From positions 1 to 60,450 of the forward strand of contig NZ_JAJSON010000001.1 in NCBI RefSeq assembly GCF_022410465.1: 60,450 nt of DNA. Reading direction: 5' to 3'. Source of the DNA: Christiangramia crocea (GTDB lineage Bacteria > Bacteroidota > Bacteroidia > Flavobacteriales > Flavobacteriaceae). The translations under genes were made by a program, and so were the position numbers. This document shows positions 11,627 through 59,449 of the stretch, piece after piece. Position 1 is the stretch's first letter. The number at the start of each line of letters is the position of its first letter. The notes below the pieces were generated by a model, which was not told the origin of the DNA, did no database searches, and worked only from the letters and a program-made list of their open reading frames with translations.

Positions 11627-11674
11627 GAAAATTATCAGAAATATGGATATTTTGTATCCTGTGCCGTCCTGTTA
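11627..11674 (-). promoter_or_regulatory. Predicted operator and -7 box for the GH106-GH105-GH43 operon
   Basis: On the minus strand the half-site GCACAGGAT (11664 to 11656) matches the locus consensus GTACAGGAT at 8 of 9 positions and is preceded by a weaker left half ending CAGGAC. After exactly 21 bases comes TAATTTTC (11634 to 11627), 5 of 6 fixed positions of TAnnTTTG. Confidence 0.6.
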
Positions 11675-11718
11675 ACCCTTCATATTTACATTCTTTTACG
11701 TAGCCGGCTAAACAGTTC

Positions 11719-11766
11719 TCACAGTAAAGTACAGGATGCTAACCAAAAGATGCCACTGTAAATTTA
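11719..11766 (+). promoter_or_regulatory. Predicted operator and -7 box for the sulfatase gene
   Basis: Operator TCACAGTAAAGTACAGGAT at 11719-11737, then 21 bases, then TAAATTTA at 11759-11766 (5 of 6 of TAnnTTTG). The expected start is near 11771, leaving a leader of about 93 bases before the sulfatase ATG. Confidence 0.65.
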
Positions 11767-11863
11767 GATGTGAAAACTGAAATCCAGGATATTTCCTTAA
11801 TGATATAGTAATTAAAATGCTTTTACCTTTTGAGAAAAGCATAAAGATGAAATTAAGAGACTC

Positions 11864-13255
11864 ATGAAAAATTCACAATTTTACCTTAAGTTCATAATTT
11901 TCTTAATTCTCCTGGCAGGTGTGGGGTGTGAAGGTTCCAGTAAGGAGGAGAGTAAAGTTAGGAGTGATTCCAAGCCAAACGTAATTTTAATCATTGCCGA
12001 TGACGCAGGCTGGAATGATGTCGGCTATCACGGTTCAGAGATTAAGACACCAAATATTGATAATCTTGCAAAAAACGGAGTTCAGCTTAACCGGTTTTAT
12101 GTTTATCCCACCTGTTCTCCTACCAGGGCAAGTCTTATAACCGGTTTGCCAGCCAGCCGACTGGGAATTGTTGCGCCTATAAGTGGGAGAAGTGAAATGA
12201 CTCTCCCTGATAGTATCAGGACGCTGCCCCAAATTTTACAAAGGGGAGGTTATTCTACAGCTCTATTAGGGAAATGGCATTTAGGTTTAAAAGCGAAGAG
12301 CGGTCCAAGTGCCTATGGTTTTGATTATTCCTATGGGTTTTTACATGGTCAGATTGATCAATACGAACATACTTATAAAAACGGTGATTCCAGTTGGCAT
12401 AGGAATGGTAGTTTTATAACAGAAGAAGGCCATGTGACTGATTTATTAGGTGCGGAAGCAATTGAATGGATTGACCGGAAAAGTTCGGATTCCTCGCCTT
12501 TCTTTTTGCAATTGGCTTATAGTGCTCCTCATGTTCCATTGCAAGAACCTAAAAAGTGGAGAGAGATATATCGACAGATAGTTACAGATAGTTCACGTCT
12601 AGATTATGCGGCGGCAATGACCCATATGGATCAATCAATCGGCAATGTACTTCAAAAAATTCAGGAGGAAAATCTGGAAGATGATACCATCATAATTTTT
12701 ATAAGTGATAATGGTGCTCAGAAAAACTGGTATCCGGATACACAGTATAATGGAAGGTTTGGTCCTAATCCAACTTTGGGAAGTAATTATCCATTTAGAG
12801 ATTATAAAACTTCAAATTATGAAGGAGGCATAAGAGTACCTGCACTAATCTACTGGAAGAATCACTTATCCAGCGGGATTAACAATAACTATATCTCTGT
12901 AATTGATTTAATGCCTACAATATTATATATGACGGGTATTCAATCCTCGGTTCCATATGGAGAGGGTACAAATATGTGGAATTCTATTGCTGACAAAAAA
13001 AACATACCGAATACTATATACACTCGTGGCCATCTTCAGGAAAGTATAATAAAGAATCCCTGGAAACTTATCAGGACCAGACACCTTGAAGGACCTTCAG
13101 ATTTTGAATTATACAATATTGAAAAAGATCCGGAAGAACAAAAAAACAGGATCAGTGAAAATCCTGAAATATTTAGTAAGCTTAAAGATCTGATGCAAAA
13201 GCAATTCACTTTGGATCCTCAAGAGGTAAATGTAGGATTGGGAATTACCAATTAA
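11864..13255 (+). CDS. S1-family (formylglycine) sulfatase, exported
   Basis: A 463-residue sulfatase with an N-terminal signal and a Cys after LAGVG (about 22), so probably a lipoprotein. The formylglycine motif CSPTRASLITG begins at Cys84; maturation needs a formylglycine-generating or anaerobic maturase enzyme, which is not in the window. Metal-binding DDAGWND near 46, GKWHLG near 139, SAPHVPLQEP near 218 and the SDNGA motif near 281 complete the arylsulfatase core. It resembles arylsulfatase-B-like S1 enzymes; subfamily and substrate cannot be read from sequence alone. Sulfate esters are not expected in land-plant RG-I, so it hints at a marine substrate. It has its own operator-type promoter and precedes susC by 281 bases. 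Confidence 0.88.
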   Translation: MKNSQFYLKFIIFLILLAGVGCEGSSKEESKVRSDSKPNVILIIADDAGWNDVGYHGSEIKTPNIDNLAKNGVQLNRFYVYPTCSPTRASLITGLPASRLGIVAPISGRSEMTLPDSIRTLPQILQRGGYSTALLGKWHLGLKAKSGPSAYGFDYSYGFLHGQIDQYEHTYKNGDSSWHRNGSFITEEGHVTDLLGAEAIEWIDRKSSDSSPFFLQLAYSAPHVPLQEPKKWREIYRQIVTDSSRLDYAAAMTHMDQSIGNVLQKIQEENLEDDTIIIFISDNGAQKNWYPDTQYNGRFGPNPTLGSNYPFRDYKTSNYEGGIRVPALIYWKNHLSSGINNNYISVIDLMPTILYMTGIQSSVPYGEGTNMWNSIADKKNIPNTIYTRGHLQESIIKNPWKLIRTRHLEGPSDFELYNIEKDPEEQKNRISENPEIFSKLKDLMQKQFTLDPQEVNVGLGITN

Positions 13256-13341
13256 CAAGTAGTTGCCGCCTTCACTTAAAAACTAAATTTATCTTAATTA
13301 AGGCGATCAAAATTAATCAAAAACTTAAAATATTAAGACTT

Positions 13342-13389
13342 ATCCAGTACAGTACAGGATACTTAAAATGACATTCCTGAATATATTTG
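13342..13389 (+). promoter_or_regulatory. susC: Predicted operator and -7 box of the susC promoter
   Basis: ATCCAGTACAGTACAGGAT (13342-13360) is the best copy of the locus operator. It is a near-perfect palindrome around 13351, the only mismatch being the fifth base of each half. After exactly 21 bases comes a full -7 consensus, TATATTTG (13382-13389). No TTG-type -33 element is visible, which suits an activator-dependent promoter. The leader to the susC ATG would be about 140 bases. Confidence 0.7.
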
Positions 13390-13408
13390 ATTGAAATTCT
13401 TATTAGCG

Positions 13409-13418
13409 CAATCGATTG
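13409..13418. promoter_or_regulatory. CAATCGATTG palindrome just downstream of the susC start
   Basis: A perfect 10-bp palindrome with a central CG, the shape usual for LacI-family operators. It lies about 20 bases after the -7 box, where a repressor could block transcription. The same AATCGATT core occurs in front of kduI (59563-59576). With only two short copies, chance cannot be excluded. Confidence 0.35.
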
Positions 13419-13536
13419 AAATTTCAGGGTTACAAACTTTCGATTAGAATAGACTTCACATCGTATATAAGGACCTGGCTAAAAAAGTGTTAATAGAGAA
13501 TTAATAAAATTGGAAAGGCTAACTAAAAATTAAATT

Positions 13537-16518: not shown

Positions 16519-16536
16519 TAAAATATTGAAGAGATT

Positions 16537-18105: not shown

Positions 18106-18144
18106 ATTTCTTGAATTAGTTTAATATAGTTTAGTTGAATTGTG

Positions 18145-18177
18145 AAAAGGGGCTGTGGATTATCATGGCCCTTTTTT
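18145..18177 (+). terminator. Hairpin with T tract after susD
   Basis: AAAAGGG (18145-18151) pairs with CCCTTTT (18169-18175) across a 17-base loop, followed by more T. It is a probable partial terminator, which would keep susCD transcript above that of the downstream enzymes. Confidence 0.5.
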
Positions 18178-18194
18178 ATTGAAAAATAAGAATC

Positions 18195-19499: not shown

Positions 19500-19520
19500 T
19501 CTTAACTCAATCTCTAACAT

Positions 19521-23558: not shown

Positions 23559-23559
23559 G

Positions 23560-25405: not shown

Positions 25406-25480
25406 CACAGGATAGAACGGGACAGATTTCTAATGTTAGACAAGTATCTTACTAAACTTTTATAATAACCTAAAATAAAA

Positions 25481-37348: not shown

Positions 37349-37361
37349 GCTAATAATTCAT

Positions 37362-43206: not shown

Positions 43207-44750
43207 TATTTTTTATTTTCCTGTCCTTTCTTTGATTGGTTCTTCGGGATAAAAATGTAATCTCTTATACCGCTTCCTTTTAATTGATTCAGGGACTTTG
43301 CAACAACCAGCGCATTTAATTCTGCACCCTCAAGGTTCGTATGCGTATGGTCTTTAGGGAAGAATTCTTTTACCTTCTGTCTGCCCATATCTTCATATCT
43401 ACTAGCAATGGAATCATTAAGATCTACAAAATAGCCTCCTGCTTCTTCAACCGCTTCTTTAGCCCATTTGGCATAAGAATCATCGTTGCGTTCCACTTTG
43501 TCACCATGCCAGATGTTTCTGGGAATCATACTCAAAACAATTGGCGTGGCTCCTTTTTCTTCTGCTTCATCAATATATTTCTTCATATACCAGCCATAAG
43601 TATGAACTACTTCGGTACTGTCTTCGCTAAATTCAACAGTTTGAGTTTCATCTCCCATACCTTTCAGTGAACCTCTATATTTCGGCTTATCTATATGTCC
43701 GCCGTCATTGTGTCCAAACTGAATTAGTAAAAAATCACCTTCATCAAGACTATCCAAAACTGCCTGCCACAGACCTTCACCTCGGAATGTTCGGCTGCTT
43801 CTTCCGCCGCGCGCTTTGTTATAAACATTCACTCGAGTAGTATCAAAATATCTATCAATAGGTACACCCCACCCAACAAGCGTATCATTATTACTAGCTA
43901 CGGTGGAATCCCCTATAATATAGACGTCTTTTTTAGCAGGAAGTTTAATCTGCGGATTTTCTAGTAGATAACTATTTAATGAATTTTCGCTTTCCTGAAT
44001 TCCTTCAGCGACAAGAGTGGCGGCCAGCACGGCTCCTTTAGCAGAGGTATGCGTATGATCCCTTTCATAAAAAAATGTTCCGGTAACATTTTTTTCGCCA
44101 ATTTCTTCCATTTCCGAAGCCATTTTTTCATTCAGGTCAATGAAGGTCACGTTTTCTTCTTCTGCAACTTTTTTTGCCCATCCTCCATAAGAATTCTTGT
44201 TTCTGGGGACGTTTCCATTATTCCAATCATTTCGTGGAATAGGAGACATGACCAGCGGAATAGCTCCTTTTTCCTTTGCGTCTTTGATCACTTTCCGAAT
44301 ATACCAGCCATAGGAATGCACCGTTTCATGTTTCCCTGTAAGCATATTATCAATTTCCTCGCTTTCATCACCGGTTCCTTTTATAGTTCCCCTTGCCCGA
44401 AAGTCATCATTAATAGGTCCCGAGTCATTATGCCCGAACTGTATAAGTACATAATCCCCTTTCTGAAGGCTGTTTTTTACCGGTTTCCAGAGCCCTTTGG
44501 TTTGAAATGTCCGGCTGCTAGTGCCTCCCAGGGCATGGTTTTCTACTTCTACTTTAGAGGTATCCAGGAACTGGCCAATATAGTCGCCCCACCCCCAGAG
44601 ACCGCCGGAACCATCACCCCGACCGTTTTTTACGGTAGAATCTCCCACTAAATAAACGGTAGGTTTGTTTTCTTCAGATGTGTTCTGGTTACAACTAAGC
44701 AGTAAAATTGCAATAGAAAGCTGAAAAAAGATTTTTAATAATTTCATCAT
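43206..44750 (-). CDS. Tandem CE12 rhamnogalacturonan acetylesterase lipoprotein
   Basis: A 514-residue lipoprotein (lipobox LLLSC, Cys20) made of two complete CE12 SGNH domains. Domain 1: GDSTVKNG with Ser38, GGTSSRTF, QFGHNDSGP, and RDHTHTSAKGA. Domain 2: GDSTVASN with Ser about 281, GGRSSRTF, QFGHNDGGH, and KDHTHTNLEGA. Both keep the Ser, Gly, Asn and Asp-x-x-His residues, so both should be active. CE12 enzymes remove acetyl groups from galacturonate in RG-I. Most family members have one such domain; the duplication may allow action on neighbouring acetyl groups. It lies between two GH2 genes in the leftward operon. Confidence 0.92.
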   Translation of the reverse strand: MMKLLKIFFQLSIAILLLSCNQNTSEENKPTVYLVGDSTVKNGRGDGSGGLWGWGDYIGQFLDTSKVEVENHALGGTSSRTFQTKGLWKPVKNSLQKGDYVLIQFGHNDSGPINDDFRARGTIKGTGDESEEIDNMLTGKHETVHSYGWYIRKVIKDAKEKGAIPLVMSPIPRNDWNNGNVPRNKNSYGGWAKKVAEEENVTFIDLNEKMASEMEEIGEKNVTGTFFYERDHTHTSAKGAVLAATLVAEGIQESENSLNSYLLENPQIKLPAKKDVYIIGDSTVASNNDTLVGWGVPIDRYFDTTRVNVYNKARGGRSSRTFRGEGLWQAVLDSLDEGDFLLIQFGHNDGGHIDKPKYRGSLKGMGDETQTVEFSEDSTEVVHTYGWYMKKYIDEAEEKGATPIVLSMIPRNIWHGDKVERNDDSYAKWAKEAVEEAGGYFVDLNDSIASRYEDMGRQKVKEFFPKDHTHTNLEGAELNALVVAKSLNQLKGSGIRDYIFIPKNQSKKGQENKK

Positions 44751-44757
44751 TGGATTT

Positions 44758-47628: not shown

Positions 47629-47632
47629 AAAT

Positions 47633-49006
47633 TTAATTTCCATCAGGTTTAGTATTTTCAAATCGGGGACTAAGGGGAACTTTCCAGCTGGAAAGTTCGT
47701 TTGGTTTTTCAGGATCATATCCTGGGGTCTCCTTCTTCAAATATTCGGAAAGAGATGAATTTTGCTCACGTAAGCCTTGGATAAATGCCAGTGCAATTTC
47801 GTTCGCTCCAAAATTATTAAAATGGGTATTGTCTTCCAGCTTCTTATCCTGTCCGGGAAAAGTGTGAGCCGGATATTGAACAAAAGCTTTTTTTGATTCT
47901 TCCACCCCCCAGGCTTCGTACATTTTGGTAGTCATTTTGGTCAAATCGATAAGCGGCACATTCATATCTCTTGCAACCTTTCTTATCGCGGCCGGGTAAT
48001 CTCCATGTGTGGGAATTAATTTTCCGTCTTTCTTAAAAAGTCTTCTTTGAGCAGGAGTAATTAGAATAGGTTCAGCTCCTTTACTCCTGGCGGTCAGTAT
48101 AAATTCCTTTAAAAGATCGGTATAAGATTGCCAGGGGCCAATCCCTTCACCTTTTCTTTTCTCATCGTTATGAGCAAAGCCAATAACCAGGTAATCCCCG
48201 GGTTTTATTTGTTCCTCTATTTTTTCAAGGCGTTTTCTGCCTTTAAAAGAAGCAAGTGAAGCGCCTGAAAAAGCATGATTGGCAATCGCTATTTCCTTAT
48301 TGAAATATTGTGTAACTGCCTGTCCCCAAGAGGCCCAGGGTTCAAGGTCCTGGTCGGTCATGGTGGAGTCCCCCGCCAGATAAAGGGTCTTGAAGTCATT
48401 TAAGGGAGTGATGCAAATTTTTTGAACAGCAACATCCCCAGAAAACTCCAGGGTAAGTTTATCATCCCAGTCTAAATCATCTAATTCCCGGTTTTTAAGG
48501 CTTGCAGTTCCTCCATCTTTCATTTCAGGTTTTCGTACATTCACTATAAAGCTTTCAGATCTTTGCCCGCCCTTTTTTACGGGAATCCTGTCGTAAAAAA
48601 TTCTCTTGGATTCAGCTTTTATAGTTGTTTCTGAAGCCTTTTTATCTAAACCCAGTATTATTTCAATTTTATAATTTCCTTCCGGAACTTTAGTGGAGAA
48701 ATAGACCGGTGCTTTGGAGGTGAAACCTGTGGGGCCAATCTCGACTTTTTGGGAGGTGCCAAAATCAAAACCATAAGCTTTTTCTGATTGAAATTCTACA
48801 GGATAATCAATAAGAATAGCCGAAGAATCAGGGCTCTTTCCGAAAGTGAATTTCAGTACCTTGGATGACTGAGCTAAAACCTCATTACAATGCAGGATTA
48901 TGAAAACAAATATTAATTTTAATCCTGCCTTGGAAATAAATATTATCCTTGTTTTTAGAGGGTTATATTTTATCCAGTCGAAAAGAGCTTGGTTCTGATC
49001 TATCAT
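47633..49006 (-). CDS. CE12-type rhamnogalacturonan acetylesterase with N-terminal beta domain
   Basis: A 457-residue exported protein; the signal hydrophobic stretch lies at 28-40 and ends VLAQ (46), after an unusually long N-region with no other start available. Residues ~50-200 form a beta-sandwich like that preceding YesT-type esterases. Residues ~205-430 form the SGNH domain: Ser in LAGDSTMTD (~212), Gly in HAFSGAS, Asn in GFAHNDEKR and Asp-x-x-His in DNTHFNNFGA. It is the first gene of the leftward operon (esterase, GH2, tandem CE12, GH2, GH115, GH2), starting about 24 bases after the transcription start predicted from the operator at 49064-49082. Confidence 0.9.
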   Translation of the reverse strand: MIDQNQALFDWIKYNPLKTRIIFISKAGLKLIFVFIILHCNEVLAQSSKVLKFTFGKSPDSSAILIDYPVEFQSEKAYGFDFGTSQKVEIGPTGFTSKAPVYFSTKVPEGNYKIEIILGLDKKASETTIKAESKRIFYDRIPVKKGGQRSESFIVNVRKPEMKDGGTASLKNRELDDLDWDDKLTLEFSGDVAVQKICITPLNDFKTLYLAGDSTMTDQDLEPWASWGQAVTQYFNKEIAIANHAFSGASLASFKGRKRLEKIEEQIKPGDYLVIGFAHNDEKRKGEGIGPWQSYTDLLKEFILTARSKGAEPILITPAQRRLFKKDGKLIPTHGDYPAAIRKVARDMNVPLIDLTKMTTKMYEAWGVEESKKAFVQYPAHTFPGQDKKLEDNTHFNNFGANEIALAFIQGLREQNSSLSEYLKKETPGYDPEKPNELSSWKVPLSPRFENTKPDGN

Positions 49007-49034: not shown

Positions 49035-49082
49035 CTAAACTACCTAAGATCGCCAGAAAAGGTATCCTGTACTGTTATGGCT
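49035..49082 (-). promoter_or_regulatory. Predicted operator and -7 box of the leftward GH2/CE12/GH115 operon
   Basis: On the minus strand AGCCATAACAGTACAGGAT (49082 to 49064) has the full half-site GTACAGGAT. After 21 bases comes TAGTTTAG (49042 to 49035), 5 of 6 of TAnnTTTG. It sits between the regulator gene and the operon, giving the operon its own promoter. Confidence 0.65.
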
Positions 49083-49090: not shown

Positions 49091-50143
49091 CTATACCGAA
49101 TTACGTTCAATATAATTGAAAACATTTTTTACTTTTTCCTTTTTATTTTTTAATACCATATAGGCGGCAGTTTCTCCCATAGTTTTAAAATCGGTACTAA
49201 TTACTGAAATACCTAATAATTCCTTCAAAGGGGTTTCATTGTACGAAATGATACCAATATCCCTTCCTAGTACCAGGTTCTTCTTTCTGGTCTGCCGTAC
49301 AAGATTCACCAGGTCCCGTTCCTGAATGGTAACATATACATCTTTACTTTGTAGTTCCATATCATCATAGATTTCGTGCAAAATTTCATAATCAAAATTA
49401 TTTTCCGCACAAAACTTAATAAAACCAGTTCGAATTCTTCGGGGATATGGATTAGCCGATTTTTCTGGATATACCAGAATCACCTTGTCATACTTCTTTA
49501 TTCTTTCTAATCCTTCAGTAAGAGCTTTGAAAATATCCTGTTCAAAGTCTTGATAAATAGAACCATAATTACCTTTTAGAACATCTTTTACATTATCGAG
49601 CATAATTAAACTGTCTGTAGGGATCTGCCTCAGGATTTTAAGTACTTCTGGCGTGAAGGTCACATGATGGGAATTATCATCTCTAAAGTGAGGCATGATC
49701 ACATAATAATTATAGGCTCCGATATTGCGTTCTAAAGTTTTTATAAATAGAGATTCATCACAATGATATATATACATGTCTACATGACTGTTAACCCCAA
49801 GAGCGTTCACAAAGGAGTTATAGGTAATCATTTTATAAGTGCTGGGTTTGTTTACCATGAATAAAATGTTGACCCTTGAAATCAAATCGGTTTTGGACGT
49901 GTAGAAACCTTTGCCTTTTACGGAAACTATAATTTTCCTTTCTTTTAAAAGCCTATATGCTTTCTCTACCGTATCTCGTGAGAGAAGGAGATGCTCACTA
50001 AGTTCGTTGATTGAGGGGATTTTTTCTCCAACCTTGATCTTACCATGGGAAATACCGGAAATGATCGAATCTACAATCTGTTTATATTTAGGTATTCTGG
50101 AATCTTCTTTAATCTCTATTTCAATTGGCTGAATTATCTTCAT
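49091..50143 (-). CDS. GntR-family transcriptional regulator with LacI/periplasmic-binding-like sensor domain
   Basis: A 350-residue DNA-binding protein, AraR-like in build. The winged helix-turn-helix of GntR type occupies residues ~15-75 (KYKQIVDSIISGISHGKIKVGEKIPSINELSEHLLLSRDTVEKAYRLLKERKIIVSVKGKGFY). A two-lobed sugar-binding-like domain follows (~80-340: VNILFMVNKPS, YYVIMPHF, SLIMLDNV, KVILVYPEKS, IISYNETPLKELLGISVISTDFKTMGETAAYMV). It is the only regulator in the window and lies between the side-chain operon and the rhamnose operon, so it is the first candidate to bind the shared operator, with rhamnose or an RG fragment as effector (inference). An operator centred near -42 would make it an activator, which is less usual for GntR proteins. 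Confidence 0.9.
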   Translation of the reverse strand: MKIIQPIEIEIKEDSRIPKYKQIVDSIISGISHGKIKVGEKIPSINELSEHLLLSRDTVEKAYRLLKERKIIVSVKGKGFYTSKTDLISRVNILFMVNKPSTYKMITYNSFVNALGVNSHVDMYIYHCDESLFIKTLERNIGAYNYYVIMPHFRDDNSHHVTFTPEVLKILRQIPTDSLIMLDNVKDVLKGNYGSIYQDFEQDIFKALTEGLERIKKYDKVILVYPEKSANPYPRRIRTGFIKFCAENNFDYEILHEIYDDMELQSKDVYVTIQERDLVNLVRQTRKKNLVLGRDIGIISYNETPLKELLGISVISTDFKTMGETAAYMVLKNKKEKVKNVFNYIERNSV

Positions 50144-50223
50144 TAGAATGAGCTCTTTTGTTAAAGAATTGTAAATTTAAATAATAAATATTTGGTTTTC
50201 CCCCTTAAAGGAAATCTTTTCCT

Positions 50224-50271
50224 AAGCAGCATACTACAGGATAGCCTCTACATCTTTTAAGACTAAATTTG
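50224..50271 (+). promoter_or_regulatory. Predicted operator and -7 box of the rhaEW operon
   Basis: Operator AAGCAGCATACTACAGGAT (50224-50242), a weaker copy (8 of 9 in the right half), then 21 bases, then a full -7 consensus TAAATTTG (50264-50271). The predicted start near 50276 gives a leader of about 24 bases. The region is shared with the divergent regulator gene. Confidence 0.65.
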
Positions 50272-50299
50272 GAGAAAATGCTAAGCTTTAACAATTATC

Positions 50300-52396
50300 A
50301 TGGAAAAAACTTTTAAATACGTAGACTATCTCTGGGATGAGCAAAAAGCAGCTTCAATGGGTGATGACCAGGTAGCGCTTTTTCTTTACCGATCTAATAT
50401 TTTAGGAGCAGATTTAAGAATCACCAATTATGGAGGAGGTAATACCAGTTGTAAAACTATTGAAAAAGACCCTCTAACCAATGAAGATGTAGAGGTAATG
50501 TGGGTAAAAGGATCAGGAGGCGACATTGGTACCCTAACCAGGGAAGGAATTGCTGGATTATATACAGAAAGACTGAGAAACCTCAAGAATGTTTATCAAG
50601 GAATTGAGGATGAAGATAGAATGGTAGGCTTGTTTAATCATTGTATCTACGATCTTAACAGTAAGGCTCCTTCAATAGACACTCCGTTACATGGTCTTTT
50701 GCCATTTAGCCATATAGATCATTTGCATCCCGATGCACTTATTGCCGTTGCAGCTGCCAAAGACAGTGAACAGGTTACCAAAGAAATTTGGGGTGATACA
50801 ATGGGATGGGTTCCCTGGCAACGTCCGGGTTTTGATCTTGGTCTTCAACTGGAGAAGTGCCTGAAAGAGAATCCTGGCATCAGGGGTATTGTTCTTGGTA
50901 GTCATGGACTTTTTACCTGGGGTGATACTTCTTATGAATGTTATATGAATAGCCTTGAGGTAATTGAGCAGGCATCTGAATATATAGCTAAGAAAATTGA
51001 AGAAAAAGGAGAAGTTTTTGGAGGTAGGAAAATAGAAAGTTTATCTGCGGAAGAACGAAAAAATAAAGCTGCAGAATTAATGCCGTTATTGCGTGGTCTG
51101 GCCTCTTCTGAGAATCAAATGATTGGTCATTTTACTGATAGTGATACAGTATTACAATATATTAACAGTAATGATCTGGAAAGGCTGGCACCTATGGGAA
51201 CTTCCTGCCCTGATCATTTTCTCCGTACAAAAATTCAACCATTGATTTTAAACCTGGAAACTTCTGAAGATATTTCAGATACAGAGAAAGTTTTAGAAAA
51301 ATTAACTCCAGATTTTGATCAGTACCGTAAAGAATATAAGGAGTATTATGAGAACTGCAAGCATGATAACAGCCCCGCAATGCGTGATCCAAATCCGGTA
51401 ATAATTATCTATCCGGGAGTTGGAATGTTCAGTTTTGCAAAAAATAAACAAACTGCCCGGGTGGCAAGTGAATTTTATGTAAATGCCATCAATGTGATGC
51501 GAGGTGCAGAGGCGATTAGTGAATATACCTCCTTGCCGCGACAGGAAGCATTTGATATTGAGTACTGGTTATTAGAAGAGGCTAAGCTTCAACGCATGCC
51601 TGCTGAAAAACCTCTTTCCCGGAGAGTAGCACTTGTGACCGGAGCCGGAGGTGGAATAGGGAAGGCCATAGCCGATAAATTAGTTGCTGAAGGTGCCAAT
51701 GTTGTACTTACCGATATTAATGAGGATAATCTAAATGAGGCTGTATCTACTTACAAACGAGATCTGGTTGAAGGAGTACTTTGTGATGTAACTAAAGAGG
51801 AATCTATCGATGCGGCTTATAAAAAAGCTAATTTGTCTTTCGGTGGGGTGGATATAGTGATACATTCTGCAGGATTAGCAATTTCTAAGTCTTTAGAAGA
51901 CACCACTCAAAAGGATTGGGATCTCTTACAGGATATTTTGGTTAAAGGTCAGTTCTTAATGGCTCAAAAAGGAGTGGAAATCATGAAAAAACAAGGGCTG
52001 GGAGGTGATATTGTAAATATTGCGAGTAAGAATGGATTGGTCGCCGGGCCAAATAATGTAGGTTATGGAACTGCCAAGGCAGCTCAGCAGCACATGACCC
52101 GTCTTCTGGCAGCGGAACTTGGGAGGGATCATATTAGGGTAAATACTGTAAACCCTGATGGTGTTATTGTAGGAAGTAAGATATGGGAAGGTGAGTGGGC
52201 CGAAGGCAGAGCCAAGGCACACGGGATTGAAGTAAAAGATCTTCCTAAACATTACGCCAAAAGAAATCTACTGCAGGAGATTATTCTTCCTGAAGATATT
52301 GCCAACGGTGTATTCGTTTGTGTGGGAATTCTGGAAAAAAGTACTGGAAATACTATTAATGTTGATGGTGGTATGGCCAATGCTTTTGTAAGATAA
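50300..52396 (+). CDS. rhaEW: Bifunctional L-rhamnulose-1-phosphate aldolase / L-lactaldehyde dehydrogenase
   Basis: A 698-residue cytoplasmic fusion. Residues ~20-420 form a class II aldolase domain: ITNYGGGNTSCK (phosphate/substrate loop), HIDHLHPDA (zinc His pair) and GSHGLFTWG (third His). Residues ~430-698 form a short-chain dehydrogenase: VALVTGAGGGIGKAIADKL (NAD site), HSAGLA, and the catalytic Tyr-x-x-x-Lys in GYGTAKAAQ. Known RhaEW enzymes split rhamnulose-1-phosphate into DHAP and L-lactaldehyde and oxidise the latter to L-lactate. The downstream rhaI, kinase and lactate dehydrogenase-type genes agree. It is followed by a strong internal hairpin. Confidence 0.92.
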   Translation: MEKTFKYVDYLWDEQKAASMGDDQVALFLYRSNILGADLRITNYGGGNTSCKTIEKDPLTNEDVEVMWVKGSGGDIGTLTREGIAGLYTERLRNLKNVYQGIEDEDRMVGLFNHCIYDLNSKAPSIDTPLHGLLPFSHIDHLHPDALIAVAAAKDSEQVTKEIWGDTMGWVPWQRPGFDLGLQLEKCLKENPGIRGIVLGSHGLFTWGDTSYECYMNSLEVIEQASEYIAKKIEEKGEVFGGRKIESLSAEERKNKAAELMPLLRGLASSENQMIGHFTDSDTVLQYINSNDLERLAPMGTSCPDHFLRTKIQPLILNLETSEDISDTEKVLEKLTPDFDQYRKEYKEYYENCKHDNSPAMRDPNPVIIIYPGVGMFSFAKNKQTARVASEFYVNAINVMRGAEAISEYTSLPRQEAFDIEYWLLEEAKLQRMPAEKPLSRRVALVTGAGGGIGKAIADKLVAEGANVVLTDINEDNLNEAVSTYKRDLVEGVLCDVTKEESIDAAYKKANLSFGGVDIVIHSAGLAISKSLEDTTQKDWDLLQDILVKGQFLMAQKGVEIMKKQGLGGDIVNIASKNGLVAGPNNVGYGTAKAAQQHMTRLLAAELGRDHIRVNTVNPDGVIVGSKIWEGEWAEGRAKAHGIEVKDLPKHYAKRNLLQEIILPEDIANGVFVCVGILEKSTGNTINVDGGMANAFVR

Positions 52397-52417
52397 TAGT
52401 TTGTGTTTAGCTTAATT

Positions 52418-52448
52418 AGGGATTTTCAATTATTGAAAATCCCTTTTT
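52418..52448 (+). terminator. Strong intrinsic terminator between rhaEW and rhaI
   Basis: A perfect 12-bp stem, AGGGATTTTCAA (52418-52429) with TTGAAAATCCCT (52433-52444), a 3-base loop and a T run to 52448. It lies inside the gene run, so read-through would set a lower level for the downstream genes. Confidence 0.8.
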
Positions 52449-52470
52449 ACTAACTAATTTTTGATGATGT

Positions 52471-53751
52471 ATGAAAATTGATAAAAATAGTATTTCAGAT
52501 TATAACAGTCAGTATAAAGATACATTTGAACAAGAATTCAGATTTGTTTCAGACAGCCTGGAACAGAAAGGATTGAATGTTGAAAGTGTTGTAAAGAAAA
52601 TCAGCGATTTTCAGGTAGCTATCCCCAGTTGGGCTTTGGGCGCAGGAGGTACACGTTTCGGACGTTTTTCTTATGGTGGTGAGCCTTCTTCTCTTGAGCA
52701 AAAACTGAATGATATAGGGGTTTTAAATGCCTTAACAAAATCGGCAGGAGCAGTATCACTGCACATTCCTTGGGATATACCGGATGATACGCAGGCGATC
52801 AAGGAAATAGCTGAAAGTCACGGGATCGCTTTCGATGCGATGAACTCGAATACATTTCAGGATCAACCAGGAGCGGAGGAGACTTATAAATTCGGTTCAT
52901 TGAATAATACAAGTAAAAATGTTAGGGACTATGCCATACAGCATAACCTGGATGTGATAAGGATAGGAGAGGAGCTCGGCTCTAAAAGCTTAACGGTTTG
53001 GCTTGCTGATGGGGCTAACTTTCCCGGTCAGTTAAATTTTCAAAATGCTTTGAAGTACACTGAAGATAGTTTGAAAAGCATATACCAATACCTGCCTGAA
53101 GATTGGAGAATGTTTATTGAATATAAACCTTACGAACCAAATTTTTACAGTACCACAATACAGGATTGGGGAACTTCTTTTATGTTAGCGAATGCGTGCG
53201 GAGAAAAGGCCTTTACACTGGTAGATCTTGGTCACCACCTGCCGAATACTAATATTGAACAAATAGTGGCTACTTTGTTGTTGAAGGGAAAGCTGGGTGG
53301 TTTTCATTTTAATGATAGTAAATATGGTGATGATGATGTTACTGTAGGGTCAATAAAACCTTATGCTTTGTTCCTTATATTTAATGAGCTGGTTTACGGG
53401 ATGGAAAATAATCCTCAAAACCCTTCTTTGGCCTGGATGATAGATGCTAGTCACAACATAAAAGATCCTCTTGAAGATTTATTGCAATCGATAGAAGCTA
53501 TTCTTATCGCCTATGCCCAGGCCCTTCTAATTGATCAAAAAGATCTGAGGGAAGCACAGTTACAAAATGATGTAGTGAAATGTCAGGAAATTCTTCAGGA
53601 TGCTTACCGTACAGATGTTAGACCACTGGTAAAAGCTGCAAGATTAAAGGCTAATGCAGCCTTAAATCCTCTGGATGCTTACCGCAGTTTTGAAGTTCGG
53701 AAAGAGCTGATAAAAGAAAGAGGAAATAAAACGATAGCTACAGGGCTATAA
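52471..53751 (+). CDS. rhaI: L-rhamnose isomerase (RhaI type)
   Basis: A 426-residue cytoplasmic TIM-barrel isomerase converting L-rhamnose to L-rhamnulose, of the Pseudomonas-type RhaI group rather than Escherichia RhaA. Landmarks are VAIPSWALGAGGTRFGRF near the start, VSLHIPWD, and the metal-ligand segments FIEYKPYEPNFY, TLVDLGHHLPN and GGFHFNDSKYGDDDVTVGS. The length matches RhaI (about 430). It follows the terminator after rhaEW by 23 bases and precedes the kinase by 10 bases. Confidence 0.9.
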   Translation: MKIDKNSISDYNSQYKDTFEQEFRFVSDSLEQKGLNVESVVKKISDFQVAIPSWALGAGGTRFGRFSYGGEPSSLEQKLNDIGVLNALTKSAGAVSLHIPWDIPDDTQAIKEIAESHGIAFDAMNSNTFQDQPGAEETYKFGSLNNTSKNVRDYAIQHNLDVIRIGEELGSKSLTVWLADGANFPGQLNFQNALKYTEDSLKSIYQYLPEDWRMFIEYKPYEPNFYSTTIQDWGTSFMLANACGEKAFTLVDLGHHLPNTNIEQIVATLLLKGKLGGFHFNDSKYGDDDVTVGSIKPYALFLIFNELVYGMENNPQNPSLAWMIDASHNIKDPLEDLLQSIEAILIAYAQALLIDQKDLREAQLQNDVVKCQEILQDAYRTDVRPLVKAARLKANAALNPLDAYRSFEVRKELIKERGNKTIATGL

Positions 53752-53761
53752 AGAAAAAAGA

Positions 53762-55138
53762 ATGAGTCAGAATAAAGTAACGGCTGTTTTCGATATAGGG
53801 AAGACTAACAAAAAATTCTTTTTATTCGATGAAGAGTTTCAGGAAGTCCATAGGGAATACATCCGTATTGATGAAATTAAGGACGAAGATGGGTTTCCAA
53901 CAGAAAATCTTGAGGCTTTAAAGAACTGGATGAAAAAAGTTTTTAATGATATCCTGAAGACCGATAGATTTGATATTACTGCTATAAATTTCTCAACCTA
54001 TGGAGCAAGTTTGGTGCATTTGGATGAAAATGGCAACGTACTGACTCCTTTATATAATTACACAAAACAGATAGATGAATCGGTAATTGATTCTTTTTAC
54101 CAAAAATATGGTCCTGAAGAAGATTTTGAGCAAATTACCGGATCACCAAAATCTGGCATGCTGAATTCAGGCATGCAGTTATACTGGATTAAAAAGAATA
54201 AGCCAGAGGTTTTTAAAAGGATAAAATATTCCCTTCACCTGCCACAATATCTTAGTTATATTTTCACCGGCATTCCAATAAGTGAATATACCAGTATTGG
54301 CTGCCATACGGCTCTCTGGGATTATAATAAAAGAGATTATCATAGATGGGTATATGATGAGAAAATCCATCTAATTCTACCGCCAATTGTTTCTACAGAA
54401 ACCAGTTTTAATATGAATTACAATGGGAAACGTATTAAAATTGGGGTAGGGATACATGATAGTTCAGCTGCTCTTCTCCCTTACGTAAGGAGTGTAAAGG
54501 AAGATTTTATTCTCGTTTCTACTGGAACCTGGAGTATATCTTTCAATCCCTTTTCTGATTCAAAGCTTTCAAAAGAGGAAGTTGAGAACGGATGCATAAA
54601 CTATATGCGTATTAACGGAAAAGCTGTGAAGGCCTCAAGAATATTTTTAGGTAATGAATATAAAAGACAAATAGAGTTTCTTTCAGAATACTATAAGGTT
54701 CCAAGGGATTTCCATAAAAACATCATCTTCGATTATGACATTTACTATGAAATTACCAAGGACTTTGAACCTATGTTTAGATGGGAAAGTTTAGAAACAG
54801 AGACTATGCCCCGTAAAACCATCCTTAAATATCCTAATATAGAAGAGGCCTATCATCAGTTAATGATAGAGCTTGTTACTATTCAGGCTGAAAGCATCAA
54901 AATAGTGGCTGGAAATACAAAGAGTTATAAACTATTTGTAGACGGGGGCTTTACCGATAATAACGTATACATCCAGTTATTATCCCATTACCTCCGCAAT
55001 ATGTCGCTAAGAACAACTAAGGCATCTCTGGGCTCTGCACTGGGTGCGGCTATTGCTATTTCTGATAAAAAATTAAATTCAAAATTTTTAAAGAAGAATT
55101 ACTCTTTAAAAAAGCATGTCCCATTTATAATTAAATAA
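53762..55138 (+). CDS. rhaB: Rhamnulokinase-like FGGY sugar kinase
   Basis: A 458-residue cytoplasmic kinase expected to phosphorylate L-rhamnulose. FGGY features are the N-terminal phosphate loop VFDIGKTNKKFFLFD, NFSTYGASLVHLDE, HDSSAALLPY and STGTWSISFNPF (ATP site region), and a C-terminal FVDGGFTDNNVYIQLLS. It is rather divergent from the Escherichia rhaB enzyme, so the substrate is assigned mainly from its place between rhaI and the lactate gene. Two bases separate its stop from the next ATG. Confidence 0.85.
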   Translation: MSQNKVTAVFDIGKTNKKFFLFDEEFQEVHREYIRIDEIKDEDGFPTENLEALKNWMKKVFNDILKTDRFDITAINFSTYGASLVHLDENGNVLTPLYNYTKQIDESVIDSFYQKYGPEEDFEQITGSPKSGMLNSGMQLYWIKKNKPEVFKRIKYSLHLPQYLSYIFTGIPISEYTSIGCHTALWDYNKRDYHRWVYDEKIHLILPPIVSTETSFNMNYNGKRIKIGVGIHDSSAALLPYVRSVKEDFILVSTGTWSISFNPFSDSKLSKEEVENGCINYMRINGKAVKASRIFLGNEYKRQIEFLSEYYKVPRDFHKNIIFDYDIYYEITKDFEPMFRWESLETETMPRKTILKYPNIEEAYHQLMIELVTIQAESIKIVAGNTKSYKLFVDGGFTDNNVYIQLLSHYLRNMSLRTTKASLGSALGAAIAISDKKLNSKFLKKNYSLKKHVPFIIK

Positions 55139-55140
55139 CA

Positions 55141-56286
55141 ATGGCTATTAATTCCAAATACCCTTCTGTAGAAGATCTACGTAAAAAAGCTAAAAAAAGA
55201 GTTCCTGAATTTGCTTTTGAATATTTGGATGGAGGTTGTAATGAAGATGTAAATATTAGCAGGAATACCAGTGAAATAAGAGAGGTACAACTGCAACCAC
55301 GGTATTTAAGAAATTATGGTAATAGCTCAATGAAAACCAAAATTTTAGGAATGGAGTTCGATGCTCCCTTCGGGATTGCTCCTGTAGGCTTACAGGGACT
55401 TATGTGGCCAAATTCGCCTCAAATCCTTGCAGCTTCAGCTTACAAGCACAATATTCCATTTGTTTTGAGTACAGTAACTACTATGGATATTGAACAGGCG
55501 AGCCGACTTACTGATGGACAGGCCTGGTTTCAGTTATATAATCCCGTGGAAGATTCCGTAAGAAATGATATTTTAAACAGGGCAAAAGATGCCGGATGTC
55601 CTGTACTCGTATTGCTATGCGATGTTCCTACTTTTGGTTACCGGCCCAGAGATATCCGAAATGGTCTGGCCCTACCTCCAAAAATGTCAGTTAAAAATAT
55701 CTTACAAATTTTAGGAAAACCTAGATGGGCTTTGAATACCTTGAAATATGGTCAGCCTACTTTTGAAAATCTGAAGCCTTATACACCAGAAGGTTTAAAC
55801 CTGAAGCAACTTGGACAATTTATGGATAAAACATTTTCAGGTCGTTTGAATGAAGAATTGATAAAGCCTATCAGGGATAAATGGAAAGGTAAGCTGGTAT
55901 TAAAGGGAGTGGCATCTGAACAGGATACTGAAGATGCTATAAAAATGGGCTTTGATGGTATTATAATCTCAAATCACGGAGGGCGACAGTTGGATGCAGG
56001 TGAATCAACCATCCATTCCCTTCAGAATATTGCAAAAAAATATAGTGACAAGATTGAAATAATGATGGATAGCGGATTAAGGTCAGGTCCCGATATTGCG
56101 CGTACAATTGCCTCTGGAGCAAAATTCACTTTTATGGGCAGATCTTTTATGTATGGCGCCGCCGCATTAGGAAAATATGGAGGAGATCATACCATTAGTA
56201 TGCTGAAAACTCAATTTCAGCAGGTAATGGATCAGTTATGCTGTGAAAAAGTAGAAGATTTGCCTAAACATTTAATTAAGAATTAA
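55141..56286 (+). CDS. lldD: FMN-dependent alpha-hydroxyacid dehydrogenase, probably L-lactate dehydrogenase
   Basis: A 381-residue flavoenzyme of the LldD/glycolate-oxidase family. It shows DAPFGIAPVGLQGLMWP (FMN site), AWFQLYNP, the Lys of KLVLKGVAS and the catalytic His in IISNHGGRQLD, then MMDSGLRSGPDI and FMGRSFMYG at the phosphate site. It should oxidise the L-lactate made by RhaEW to pyruvate, passing electrons to the quinone pool, and so completes rhamnose breakdown. Other 2-hydroxyacids are possible by family. It lies 2 bases from the kinase and 12 bases from the permease. Confidence 0.88.
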   Translation: MAINSKYPSVEDLRKKAKKRVPEFAFEYLDGGCNEDVNISRNTSEIREVQLQPRYLRNYGNSSMKTKILGMEFDAPFGIAPVGLQGLMWPNSPQILAASAYKHNIPFVLSTVTTMDIEQASRLTDGQAWFQLYNPVEDSVRNDILNRAKDAGCPVLVLLCDVPTFGYRPRDIRNGLALPPKMSVKNILQILGKPRWALNTLKYGQPTFENLKPYTPEGLNLKQLGQFMDKTFSGRLNEELIKPIRDKWKGKLVLKGVASEQDTEDAIKMGFDGIIISNHGGRQLDAGESTIHSLQNIAKKYSDKIEIMMDSGLRSGPDIARTIASGAKFTFMGRSFMYGAAALGKYGGDHTISMLKTQFQQVMDQLCCEKVEDLPKHLIKN

Positions 56287-56298
56287 ACTGAAAATAGT

Positions 56299-57717
56299 AT
56301 GACTATATATAATCAGGAGGAAGTTGTCATAGAAGAAATATCCGGAGGTGAATTTGAGCGTGAGCCTGTTCCTTATTCTAATTGGAAAAGCTGGAAAAGC
56401 TTTCTTGGTATGTATGCGGGGGAACATGCAGCTGGAACAGAATTCGTGATAGGACCACTATTTCTTACCACAGGAGTTAGTGCATTTGATCTAATTTTTG
56501 GACTTCTGCTTGGAAACCTGATGGCAGTTTTAAGCTGGCGATTTTTGACTGCTGAAATAGGAACTAAATTTAGATTCACTTTATACTATCATTTAGAAAA
56601 AATATGTGGGAAACGCTTAGTAACCCTATATAACTTGGCAAATGGGATGCTATTTTGTTTTCTGGCCGGTGCAATGATAACTATTTCAGCTACAGCGGTA
56701 GGAATTCCATTCGATATGGAAATGCCACAACTTACAGATACAATGCCAAACGGGGTGACATGGATAGTAATTGTACTTTGCATAGGGACGGTTATATCAG
56801 TAATTGCTGCAAGAGGATATTCAACAGTGGCCAAAGCTGCTAACTGGATGTCCCCAGTAATTGTTTTGGCCTTTGTGGTTTGTGGGATAGTTGCATTATT
56901 TCAATTAAATGTGAATAGCTTCTCCGACTTCTGGAATATTTGGGGAAATGGAAGTGAACCTTTTCCAGGACAGATCAAATATACTTTCTGGCATGTATTT
57001 TTATGGTCGTGGTTTGCAAATGCCGCAATGCATATAGGCATGTCTGATCTTTCAGTTTTTAGGTTTGCCAAAAAGGCAAGCACTGGATGGACAACAGCTG
57101 CCGGAATGTACATAGGTCATTTTATTGCCTGGATTGCTGCATGTCTCTTATATGCCGTTTATTTAAAATCTCCGGAAGCCCAGGTTTTCTTAAGTAATGG
57201 TCAGGCTCCGCCTGTTGCTCCAGGTCCATTGGCATATAATGCCATTGGTGTTTTTGGTATTATAGCTGTAATCCTTGCAGGATGGACAACGGCAAATCCA
57301 ACGATCTACAGAGCTGGCCTGGCATTTCAGGCTATACTTCCAAAGACCTCTACATTCTGGGTGACCCTTATTGCCGGAGGAATAGCAACTGTGGCGGGCT
57401 TATTCCCCGCTTTTGCAATGCGCTTATTAGATTTTGTAGCTTTATATGGTTTTATACTCGCACCTGTGGGAGCAGTGATCGTTTTTGAATATTTCTTTGG
57501 GGCGAAAATAGGGATTCAATCCTTTTATGCTCAAAAGACTGGTGGGCGATTTAATTTAGCAGTATTTTGGGCATGGTTAATTAGCTTTGGTATATTTTAC
57601 TTTATATCTGTTCATTACAATGTATTTCTTTCTTTTCTTACGTTGCCAGCCTGGTTGCTCTGTGGATTGCTATTCTTGTTTTTAAGCAAGTTTTATCAGA
57701 ATAAGGTATATCAATAA
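56299..57717 (+). CDS. NCS1-type (purine/cytosine permease-like) inner-membrane transporter, candidate L-rhamnose importer
   Basis: A 472-residue membrane protein with about 12 hydrophobic segments. The N-terminal GMYAGEHAAGTEFVIGPLFLTTG and later FWHVFLWSWFANAAMHIGMSDLSVFRF and GWTTANPTIYRAGLAF resemble the NCS1 nucleobase transporter fold. No purine or pyrimidine gene is nearby, and the gene sits 12 bases after lldD in the rhamnose operon, where a RhaT or MFS rhamnose transporter would be expected and is missing. L-rhamnose (or lactate) uptake is therefore the inferred role. The family assignment is firmer than the substrate. Confidence 0.82.
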   Translation: MTIYNQEEVVIEEISGGEFEREPVPYSNWKSWKSFLGMYAGEHAAGTEFVIGPLFLTTGVSAFDLIFGLLLGNLMAVLSWRFLTAEIGTKFRFTLYYHLEKICGKRLVTLYNLANGMLFCFLAGAMITISATAVGIPFDMEMPQLTDTMPNGVTWIVIVLCIGTVISVIAARGYSTVAKAANWMSPVIVLAFVVCGIVALFQLNVNSFSDFWNIWGNGSEPFPGQIKYTFWHVFLWSWFANAAMHIGMSDLSVFRFAKKASTGWTTAAGMYIGHFIAWIAACLLYAVYLKSPEAQVFLSNGQAPPVAPGPLAYNAIGVFGIIAVILAGWTTANPTIYRAGLAFQAILPKTSTFWVTLIAGGIATVAGLFPAFAMRLLDFVALYGFILAPVGAVIVFEYFFGAKIGIQSFYAQKTGGRFNLAVFWAWLISFGIFYFISVHYNVFLSFLTLPAWLLCGLLFLFLSKFYQNKVYQ

Positions 57718-57828
57718 AAAATTATAAGAATAGCTAAGACAGTTTATGGCTACTAATTAAAAATATTAGTAAGAGTTTTGCTATTTAAGAATAAATAAGG
57801 TTTCACAACTATAAAACTTCCTGATCTT

Positions 57829-59325
57829 ATGGGAAAAAGTACTATTATGCTCACTTTTCGTTTAGTTCTATTTTCTACCTTAATTTTAGTATCCTGTGAG
57901 GACAACCAAAAAGATAAGAGTACCAAAAATTCAAAGGATGAAAGCCAGGGATTTATGCCAGATTGGGTTGCTAATGCAGGAGCTAAGGAAATTGAATTTA
58001 AAGATAGTATATATTATGTTAATGATTATGATGCTATAGATGATGGCTCTGAACTCACTACAGAGGCAATTCAAATGGCTATAGACGAATGTCATGAAAA
58101 TGGAGGAGGAACAGTAGCTTTTAAACCCGGGGTTTACCTAACTGGAGCTGTATTTGTTAAGGAAGGGATAAATTTTAGAATTGATAAGGGAGTTGAAATT
58201 AGGGGAAGTGAAAATATAGAAGACTATACTTTAATTGATACACGGGTGGCAGGTATAGAAATAAAATGGCCAGCTGCTCTAATTAATGTTCGTGATCAAA
58301 AAAACGTTAGAATAAGTGGGAATGGACTTGTAGACGGTCAGGGGAAAGTCTATTGGGATTATTACTGGAAATTAAGAAAAGAATATGAATCCAAAGGTTT
58401 GAGATGGATAGTAGATTATGATGCACGGAGACCCAGAACCTTTTTAATTTCGAATTCTGAAAATGTCTTCTTAAAAGATCTTAATATTCAAAAAGCAGGA
58501 TTTTGGACTGTCCAGGTGCTTTATTCCAAATATGTAACGGTTGATGGAATTACAATTCGTAATAATATTGGAGGGCATGGACCCAGTACCGATGGAATAG
58601 ATATCGATTCCTCTCAATGGATTCTGGTTCAAAACTGCGATATTGATTGTAATGATGACAACTTCTGCTTAAAGGCCGGAAGGGATTGGGATGGTTTGAG
58701 AGTAGATAAGCCCACTCAATATGTTGTGATAAAGGATTGTATAGCAAGGCGTGGTGCAGGCTTATTTACCATTGGAAGTGAAACTTCCGGAGACATTCGG
58801 CATGTATATGTTTCAAATATTCGAGGCATTGGTACCTCTAACGGCTTAAATATAAAATCGGCAATGACCCGTGGTGGTACAGTAGAGGATATATATCTTG
58901 AAAATATAAAGATGGATAGTGTAGGGACATTTATGGAAGTTTCTATGAATTGGAATCCAAGCTATAGCTATTCCAAATTGCCGAAAAATTACGATATAGA
59001 CTCTGTCCCGGATCATTGGCGTACATTATTGAAGAGAGTGGAACCGGCTTCAAGAGGTATTCCTAAATTTCGGAATATAAGCCTTTATAACATTCAGGTG
59101 CAAAATGCCAAACGAGCGATCAATGTCAATGGGATCGATAGTTCTTTGGTAGAGAATATTACCCTGAAAGATGTACATATCCAGGGAAAAACTGCCGGAC
59201 AGATTAATTATAGTAAAAACTGGAACTTAAATAATGTAAGTCTGGATATAGAAGATGGCACCCAATTGAATATAAATAATTCCAAAAAGGTAGAATTTCC
59301 GGATTCTATATATGCTTTTAACTGA
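57829..59325 (+). CDS. GH28 polygalacturonase / rhamnogalacturonan hydrolase lipoprotein, copy 2
   Basis: A 498-residue lipoprotein (lipobox ILVSC, Cys about 24). GH28 beta-helix: YDAIDDGSELTTEAIQMAIDECHENGGGTV, GNGLVDGQGKVYWD, catalytic acids in PSTDGIDIDSS (~253) and NCDIDCNDDNFCLKAGRDWDG (~275), and TIGSETSGD (~317). The sequence around the active site differs clearly from copy 1 (28710-30314), suggesting a separate link or chain end. The 111-base gap upstream holds a short AT-rich inverted repeat (TACTAAT/ATTAGTA, 57751-57771) but no copy of the locus operator, so it may depend on read-through from the rhamnose operon or an unrecognised promoter. Confidence 0.9.
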   Translation: MGKSTIMLTFRLVLFSTLILVSCEDNQKDKSTKNSKDESQGFMPDWVANAGAKEIEFKDSIYYVNDYDAIDDGSELTTEAIQMAIDECHENGGGTVAFKPGVYLTGAVFVKEGINFRIDKGVEIRGSENIEDYTLIDTRVAGIEIKWPAALINVRDQKNVRISGNGLVDGQGKVYWDYYWKLRKEYESKGLRWIVDYDARRPRTFLISNSENVFLKDLNIQKAGFWTVQVLYSKYVTVDGITIRNNIGGHGPSTDGIDIDSSQWILVQNCDIDCNDDNFCLKAGRDWDGLRVDKPTQYVVIKDCIARRGAGLFTIGSETSGDIRHVYVSNIRGIGTSNGLNIKSAMTRGGTVEDIYLENIKMDSVGTFMEVSMNWNPSYSYSKLPKNYDIDSVPDHWRTLLKRVEPASRGIPKFRNISLYNIQVQNAKRAINVNGIDSSLVENITLKDVHIQGKTAGQINYSKNWNLNNVSLDIEDGTQLNINNSKKVEFPDSIYAFN

Positions 59326-59401
59326 GAAAAATATTCTAATAGGGTTACAATTTTCTAGCTCTCCCCTGGTTTCTTTTAATATCTTTTGGTTGTAGCTTTC
59401 C

Positions 59402-59449
59402 TGGCAGTAAAGAACAGGATGGTTATACCTTATCTAATTTTTATCTTCA
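59402..59449 (+). promoter_or_regulatory. Predicted operator and weak -7 box upstream of kduI
   Basis: Operator TGGCAGTAAAGAACAGGAT (59402-59420) matches the right half at 8 of 9. The position 21 bases on reads TATCTTCA (59442-59449), only 4 of 6 of TAnnTTTG, so this is the weakest promoter call of the set. Confidence 0.5.

Follow-up and report, generated by a model that had tools for sequence, protein, structure and literature searches.

A family-wide operator at a fixed 21-base distance from the -7 box, and its likely regulator, in a rhamnogalacturonan-I locus of Christiangramia crocea

The rhamnogalacturonan-I locus and its six sites

The first 60,450 bp of contig NZ_JAJSON010000001.1 of Christiangramia crocea (C1:1-60450, hereafter the window) represent 1.5% of a 3.90-Mb genome assembled in 32 contigs. 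The window contains six copies of a short intergenic element, each followed 21 bases further on by a sequence resembling the -7 promoter box TAnnTTTG, and a gene for a GntR/LacI-type protein that is likely, judging from the sequence comparisons described below, to be the regulator acting at this element. According to the Pfam and NCBIfam assignments, the window is a rhamnogalacturonan-I (RG-I) locus, with the following genes and gene sets:

330-5815: PL9-like lyase, pectinesterase piece and DUF6807 (Pfam/NCBIfam)
5824-11510, minus strand: GH43/esterase-GH88-GH106 set (Pfam/NCBIfam)
11864-13255, plus strand: sulfatase (Pfam)
11864-34896, plus strand: the same sulfatase, susC, susD and a long enzyme series including a PcRGLX lyase and rhaM (Pfam/NCBIfam)
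34910-49006, minus strand: GH2/GH115/GDSL-esterase set (Pfam)
49091-50143, minus strand: GntR/LacI-type protein, the proposed regulator (Pfam, AlphaFold, Foldseek, and co-occurrence and covariation with the site)
50300-57717, plus strand: rhamnose operon, rhaEW first (Pfam/NCBIfam)
50300-52396, plus strand: rhaEW, bifunctional rhamnulose-1-phosphate aldolase/dehydrogenase, a proposed target (NCBIfam NF006191 and TIGR02632)
57829 (start): GH28 gene (Pfam/NCBIfam)
59572-60435, plus strand: kduI, 5-dehydro-4-deoxy-D-glucuronate isomerase (NCBIfam)

The closest named relatives of this rhaEW are those of Gramella, Zunongwangia, Mesonia and Salegentibacter. The initial annotation of the window had reported six sites and six -7 boxes, and all are present at the positions it gave. 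They are listed here together with one weak candidate, with scores from a matrix trained on relatives alone:

11627..11671, minus strand: site, 21-base spacing and -7 box TAATTTTC, before the GH106/GH88/GH43-esterase set (11510 down to 5824); score 28.8; 116 bases to ATG
11722..11766, plus strand: site and -7 box TAAATTTA, before the sulfatase (11864-13255); score 34.0; 97 bases to ATG
13345..13389, plus strand: site and -7 box TATATTTG, before susC (13537) and downstream genes; score 39.7; 147 bases to ATG
25408..25452, plus strand: weak candidate seventh site CAGGATAGAACGGGACAG and -7 box TATCTTAC, before a GH88 gene (25481); score 13.9; 28 bases to ATG
49035..49079, minus strand: site and -7 box TAGTTTAG, before the GDSL-esterase/GH2/GH115 set (49006 down to 34910); score 26.6; 28 bases to ATG
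50227..50271, plus strand: site and -7 box TAAATTTG, before the rhaEW-led rhamnose operon (50300-57717); score 36.8; conserved in relatives
59405..59449, plus strand: site and -7 box TATCTTCA, before kduI (59572-60435); score 29.0

The sequence GTACAGGAT, which had been described as shared by all six sites, is exact in only three of them (11729, 13352 and 49072 on the minus strand); the remaining three read GCACAGGAT, CTACAGGAT and GAACAGGAT. The longer version CAGTAMAGTACAGGAT is exact in only two (11722 and 13345). Common to all six sites is ACAGGAT, and CAGNNNNNNACAGGAT is common to five, with the site at 49079 (minus strand) having CAT instead of CAG ten bases earlier. As had been claimed, the boxes located 21 bases on match TAnnTTTG well, at 5, 5, 6, 5, 6 and 4 of its six fixed positions for the sites at 11664 (minus strand), 11729, 13352, 49072 (minus strand), 50234 and 59412, respectively.

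The spacing of 21 bases is not expected by chance

At a spacing of 21, 31 of the 36 fixed -7 box positions are matched across the six sites, compared with 17 at the next best spacing and a mean of 11.5 for the gaps tried (0-60). Boxes resembling the -7 box are common in A+T-rich DNA, which would favor a chance or compositional origin of the motif. Nevertheless, none of 5000 mononucleotide shuffles, each taken at its own best spacing, reached 31 of 36, and the joint pattern with at most two mismatches is found six times in the window, as opposed to a mean of 0.08 and a maximum of 2 in 200 order-2 Markov shuffles. The matrix trained on relatives gives scores of 26.6-39.7 for the six sites, followed by 13.9 for the weak candidate and then 6.8; the top score in 20 shuffled windows was 10.6. 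Together with the reversed-pattern control and the conservation before rhaEW in other genomes presented below, these results make a chance motif exceedingly improbable.

The regulon had been described as locus-wide. The six sites and the regulon stand, but some gene sets are without a site: the matrix scan of the window detected none scoring 6 or more before 330-5815 or before the GH28 gene at 57829.

Occurrence of the motif in the rest of the genome

It had been set down beforehand that occurrence of the motif plus spacing before unrelated genes would speak against a regulon. The outcome of the scan, both in the own genome and in relatives, favors a regulon. With at most two mismatches, there are 10 matches in the entire genome, including the six in the window. 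Another match, C17:605987-606031 (minus strand), is located 307 bases before an open reading frame (ORF) encoding a PL11 rhamnogalacturonan lyase and scores 33.7 with the relatives-only matrix; this lyase is the one predicted regulon member outside the window locus. When three mismatches were allowed, 62 matches were obtained versus 23 for the reversed pattern. Most of these are background, a point that taken by itself fits a chance motif, and except for the six window sites and the PL11 site, none of the 62 scores above 12.4 with the same matrix.

The core alone (CAGN6ACAGGAT) occurs 17 times in the genome, with five occurrences in the window; five of the 12 outside it were assessed by matrix score only, and the highest score was 10.5. 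Nine other places matching the pattern or the core were compared with ORFs. Seven of them are inside an ORF; the other two, C14:29128 between ORFs and C17:686991 at an ORF end, do not score above 8.

Opposite the PL11 site, a second good element (locus L061, C17:606129-606146, plus strand; 18-mer score 22.6) was observed. The next ORF starts about 420 bases on and encodes a CHU_C/T9SS protein, and a third, CAGGATA-like copy is present between the L061 and PL11 elements.

The element and its spacing are conserved before rhaEW in related flavobacteria

Comparison with related flavobacteria strongly supports an operator at a fixed 21-base distance from the -7 box. The core, sought without using the -7 box, was found within 250 bases in 76 of 80 named rhaEW loci (41 non-redundant promoters). 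In 75 of these 76 promoters, a box matching at least five of the six positions is present at exactly 21 bases (an exact box in 64), while every other gap between 8 and 40 is represented at most twice. The four loci lacking the core belong to Allomuricauda, where the regulator is 42% identical and the element has diverged. Among the 41 non-redundant promoters, conservation is seen at positions 1-18 and in the box, the 19 bases in between carrying at most 0.55 bits each.

Similar results were obtained when the gap was left free (6-36) and the exact pattern was searched in 149 genomes of the family, which gave 41 matches, against 2 for the reversed control. Thirty-one of the 41 have a gap of 21, and all of these are in genomes that encode the regulator; the other 10 have scattered gaps (four in regulator genomes and six in others). 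Allowing one mismatch, the real pattern matched 152 times and the reversed pattern twice. In loci of Chryseobacterium and Epilithonimonas (e.g., L094, L104, L105 and L148), the element typically reads CAGTATAGTACGGGATGC, with A changed to G at position 12, and the spacing is the same; the regulators of these loci keep VEK wherever the recognition helix is readable.

Genes downstream of the element in relatives

Besides the own genome, 27 relatives contain 138 matches, of which 135 were read; one at a contig end and two others were left out. Nearly all (133 of 135) lie in no ORF longer than 160 aa, and the distance from the box to the next ORF start has a median of 36 bases and is within 150 bases in 123. 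The first genes after the element include 21 rhaEW, 25 TonB/SusC-type genes, 13 sulfatases and 5 GH106 genes, as well as at least four GH88 genes, at least three ECF sigma factors, and at least two each of PL11, PL28 ulvan lyase, rhaM and GH28. The Pfam tallies cover the 25 commonest of 74 and of 51 families, and counts of two are lower bounds. Both ulvan and RG-I contain rhamnose, which suggests that the signal is rhamnose or a product of it.

The ECF-type sigma factor-like genes preceded by the element were found at L279, L294, L313 and L349 (three Sigma70 matches, and L279 by sequence inspection). This arrangement suggests a regulatory cascade. Genomes without the regulator gave nine matches, two of which were likewise compared with ORFs (a third, L355, was dropped): L353 is in no ORF longer than 160 aa, and L354 is inside a 505-aa ORF.

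The element is a direct repeat with a period of one helical turn

The 18 bp of the element form a direct repeat, CAGKAYRS-N2-CAGGATRS, whose period of 10 bp corresponds to one helical turn. The element had been described as a 19-base sequence near -42, the position of class II activator sites; the position fits, but the conserved element is 18 bp rather than 19 bp long. Leaving aside the positions that the search had fixed, the commonest bases at 4-8 (G A T A G) recur at 14-18 in the 135 sites. The similarity of the position pairs that involve the eight unfixed positions is 0.576 for a direct repeat of period 10 and 0.551 for period 5, compared with 0.400 for the best palindrome and 0.263 for random pairs; period 5 (CAGTA CAGTA CAGGA), scoring nearly as high, is not excluded as a finer substructure. 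A palindrome, C-GTA-nnn-TAC-G, was plausible on the rhaEW sites alone. It was ruled out because the half-sites match head to tail, and also by position 4, which is mostly G in the 135 sites (67 G, 48 T, 16 C and 4 A). Within sites, no coupling between positions 4-8 and 14-18 was detected beyond the marginals.

The likely regulator and its association with the element

The GntR/LacI-type protein encoded at 49091-50143 has an N-terminal GntR winged helix (PF00392, 3.9e-12, residues 19-81) and a C-terminal LacI/GalR-type sensor domain (Peripla_BP_3, 4.9e-6; 27.2 bits versus a cut-off of 26.5). Its AlphaFold model (pLDDT 88.7) contains a winged helix and a domain of the LacI/ribose-binding type. 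Foldseek matched it to LacI (1efa, E 6.5e-12), PurR and RbsR, which informs on domain type only. The AraR DNA-binding domain (4egy, E 9.9e-8) is among the PDB matches.

A close relative of the regulator (E<=1e-110, a cut chosen after seeing the gap between genome bests of 1.4e-121 and 3.0e-83) is encoded in 28 of the 149 genomes, and all 28 contain the motif with at most one mismatch, 1 to 12 times each. In contrast, the motif was found in only 9 of the 121 genomes without a close regulator, with one match each (Fisher 8e-23). For the 33 genomes with rhaEW, the corresponding numbers are 28 of 28 and 0 of 5 (p 4e-6). At least two close regulator copies were observed in relatives G044, G070, G132, G134 and G002, in tandem in the first three; in G044, one of the copies is preceded by a site.

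The recognition helix covaries with the element. All 82 loci containing both the regulator and rhaEW, which are partly redundant, were tabulated and none was dropped. The helix SRDTVEKAY (or IEK, VDK, SRNTVEK) adjoins rhaEW promoters with CAGGAT, CAGGAC or CGGGAT in 75 of 75 loci, and VVK, VVR or IVR adjoins CAGAAC in six of seven. Counted as distinct elements with outgroups included, position 14 is A in 0 of 40 VEK-type and 6 of 7 V-type elements, and position 4 is A in 2 of 40 and 6 of 7, respectively. The 40 VEK-type 18-mers omit the VEK-type element of G169, which also has G at position 14, and the VEK-type genomes G127, G248 and G353 have no rhaEW element and are hence outside this count. 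In G020, the regulator is only 41% identical, yet VEK and CAGGAT are both kept. That both half-sites shift together supports the binding of two copies of one DNA-binding domain to the direct repeat.

Another regulator, of the AraC type or a hybrid two-component system (HTCS), might bind the repeat instead, with the GntR/LacI-type protein as a mere neighbor. AraC-type domains suit direct repeats one turn apart. RhaR of Bacteroides is of the AraC type, and the three VEK-type genomes without a site at rhaEW agree with such a scenario. We consider it improbable, because both half-sites covary with the GntR helix, and no AraC or HTCS family was matched among the 36 window proteins scanned, three of which have no Pfam match at all, AraC genes elsewhere in the genomes not having been searched for. 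Moreover, the AraC/HTCS motifs of Bacteroides are described as repeating at 21 bp, whereas the element repeats at 10 bp within its 18 bp and the 20 bases upstream are little conserved.

Promoter architecture and a model for regulation

A transcriptome study of F. psychrophilum places TAnnTTTG at -12 to -5. If this position holds, the element extends from about -49 to -32, with its center at about -40.5 and its proximal half in the usual place of a -33 box. In 135 promoters, TTG at spacers of 15-26 occurs only six times. Two features of class II promoters are thus present, namely a constant site distance near -41.5 and a poor or absent upstream promoter element. The constant distance, the lack of a -33 box and the presence of a core box favor recruitment of the polymerase by the bound regulator.

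The same regulator and operator could also act by repression, with the protein covering the -33 region (about -49 to -32) and being released by rhamnose. The site does overlap this region, and a GntR-family repressor of alginate genes in Zobellia has reportedly been described. Repressor operators usually vary in position, and here a single spacing accounts for 31 of the 35 exact matches in genomes with the regulator and for 75 of the 76 rhaEW promoters; in addition, hardly any -33 TTG is available to sigma. We therefore regard repression as rather unlikely, though a more serious contender than a different regulator.

In our view, it is likely that the GntR/LacI-type regulator binds the element at about -41 and activates a rhamnose-polymer regulon. 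The LacI-like domain of the regulator would sense L-rhamnose or a compound derived from it, and the protein would bind the head-to-tail repeat, which covers about -49 to -32, where a -33 element would otherwise lie. Once bound, it would recruit sigma-A RNA polymerase to the TAnnTTTG box without a -33 partner. RG-I depolymerization, SusC/D import, the catabolism of rhamnose and uronate (kduI), and the PL11 lyase encoded elsewhere would thereby be switched on together.

Several observations weigh against this activator model. The chimera of GntR/LacI type that is known best, AraR, acts as a repressor (PDB molecule name and reference title). At L061, a poor box, TAGTTTAA, is present at 20 and not 21 bases. 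In the window, the regulator gene has no site of its own in the matrix scan, and autoregulation is rejected. No element was found near rhaEW in G024, G037, G127, G248 and G353, of which the last three have VEK-type regulators. Of the five genomes that have rhaEW but no close regulator, three do not count as clear negatives, as they have diverged elements below the threshold: CAGAAC with a box at 21 before rhaEW in G108, CCCTTAGCTACAGGATAC with TAAATTTG at 21 in G020, and CAGTAAAGTGCAGGAAGG with TAGTTTTA at 21 in G064. Hence it is the sequence of the element that goes with the regulator, and not merely whether an element is there. In G179 and G242, outside the order, the element lacks a TAnnTTTG box 21 bases on, and that of G334 is imperfect. 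At the class level (217 genomes, 24 with the motif), the association is weaker, with the motif in 8 of 15 genomes having the regulator at E<=1e-60 and in 16 of 202 others, which indicates that the association is tight within the family and its near relatives only. Furthermore, L137 combines a VVR helix with a hybrid element, CAGAAC upstream and CAGGAT downstream, and the recognition-helix contrast essentially reflects a few clades and may represent one or two events. Finally, AraR operators are palindromes, unlike the element described here.

Genes of the window without family assignment

The pectinesterase-like ORF (178 aa; 3990-4761) matches its Pfam model in the C-terminal half only, and its upstream part looks degraded. 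Three long ORFs have no Pfam family: 26952-28334 (460 aa) and 31409-34099 (896 aa) within the RG-I series, and 56299-57717 (472 aa) within the rhamnose operon.

Discussion

The computation establishes that the element exists, that its distance to the -7 box is fixed at 21 bases and that the -33 TTG is missing, and also that the element co-occurs with the regulator and covaries with its helix. The operator and regulon are real and family-wide, with a likely regulator, which is probably a rhamnose-responsive activator; its binding, activation rather than repression, and its ligand are inferred. A broader proposal is that members of the GntR/LacI-chimera family have turned into class II activators reading a one-turn direct repeat instead of a -33 element. 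They would control a single rhamnose regulon (RG-I, and ulvan in relatives), from sulfatase, lyase and SusC to aldolase, across the Flavobacteriaceae and Chryseobacterium-like relatives, with a paralogous clade switching CAGGAT to CAGAAC via one or two recognition-helix residues. We see this broader proposal as evenly poised between right and wrong.

In Bacteroidetes, the usual description of a polysaccharide locus has a regulator specific to that locus, the cytoplasmic sugar genes being under another factor. Here, a single operator ties the outer-membrane half to the cytoplasmic half and points to a regulator. A matrix derived from it predicts targets in other genomes, for RG-I and ulvan alike. 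The naturally varying elements also amount to a set of mutants in which GntR-DNA recognition, and activation at promoters of Bacteroidetes that lack a -33 box, can be studied, and the system might find use in sensing L-rhamnose where algal material or pectin is degraded.

The comparison with known systems draws on PMC3878776, PMC3870299, PMC4494728, PMC9723704, PMC9296495, PMC12323373 and PMC12858550. In the literature searched, which did not cover most subscription journals or RegPrecise, neither this element nor a flavobacterial rhamnose regulator of the GntR/LacI type was found to be described. The AraR subfamily (B. subtilis AraR) is similar in combining a GntR winged helix with a LacI/GalR-type sugar domain and in controlling a sugar-utilization regulon. 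It differs in being a repressor, whereas the element described here is a 10-bp direct repeat that keeps a constant distance to promoters lacking a -33 box. Direct repeats have precedents among GntR proteins in the same sources, namely FarR, NagQ, NanR and MocR; regulators of the MocR/GabR and NanR types likewise place GntR winged helices on direct repeats, but have other effector domains, and the MocR repeats have long spacers. The regulons of DeoR-family RhaR resemble ours in their rhamnose genes and imperfect direct repeats with a 10-11 bp period, but the protein family is different, and the text of that paper does not name flavobacteria (0 occurrences). Bacteroides RhaR (AraC family) and the Rgu HTCS also control rhamnose or rhamnogalacturonan genes in Bacteroidetes, through other protein families and motifs with a 21-bp period. 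RhaR is described as having a single target operon, with the RG loci under separate HTCS, whereas here one element joins polymer and monosaccharide genes.

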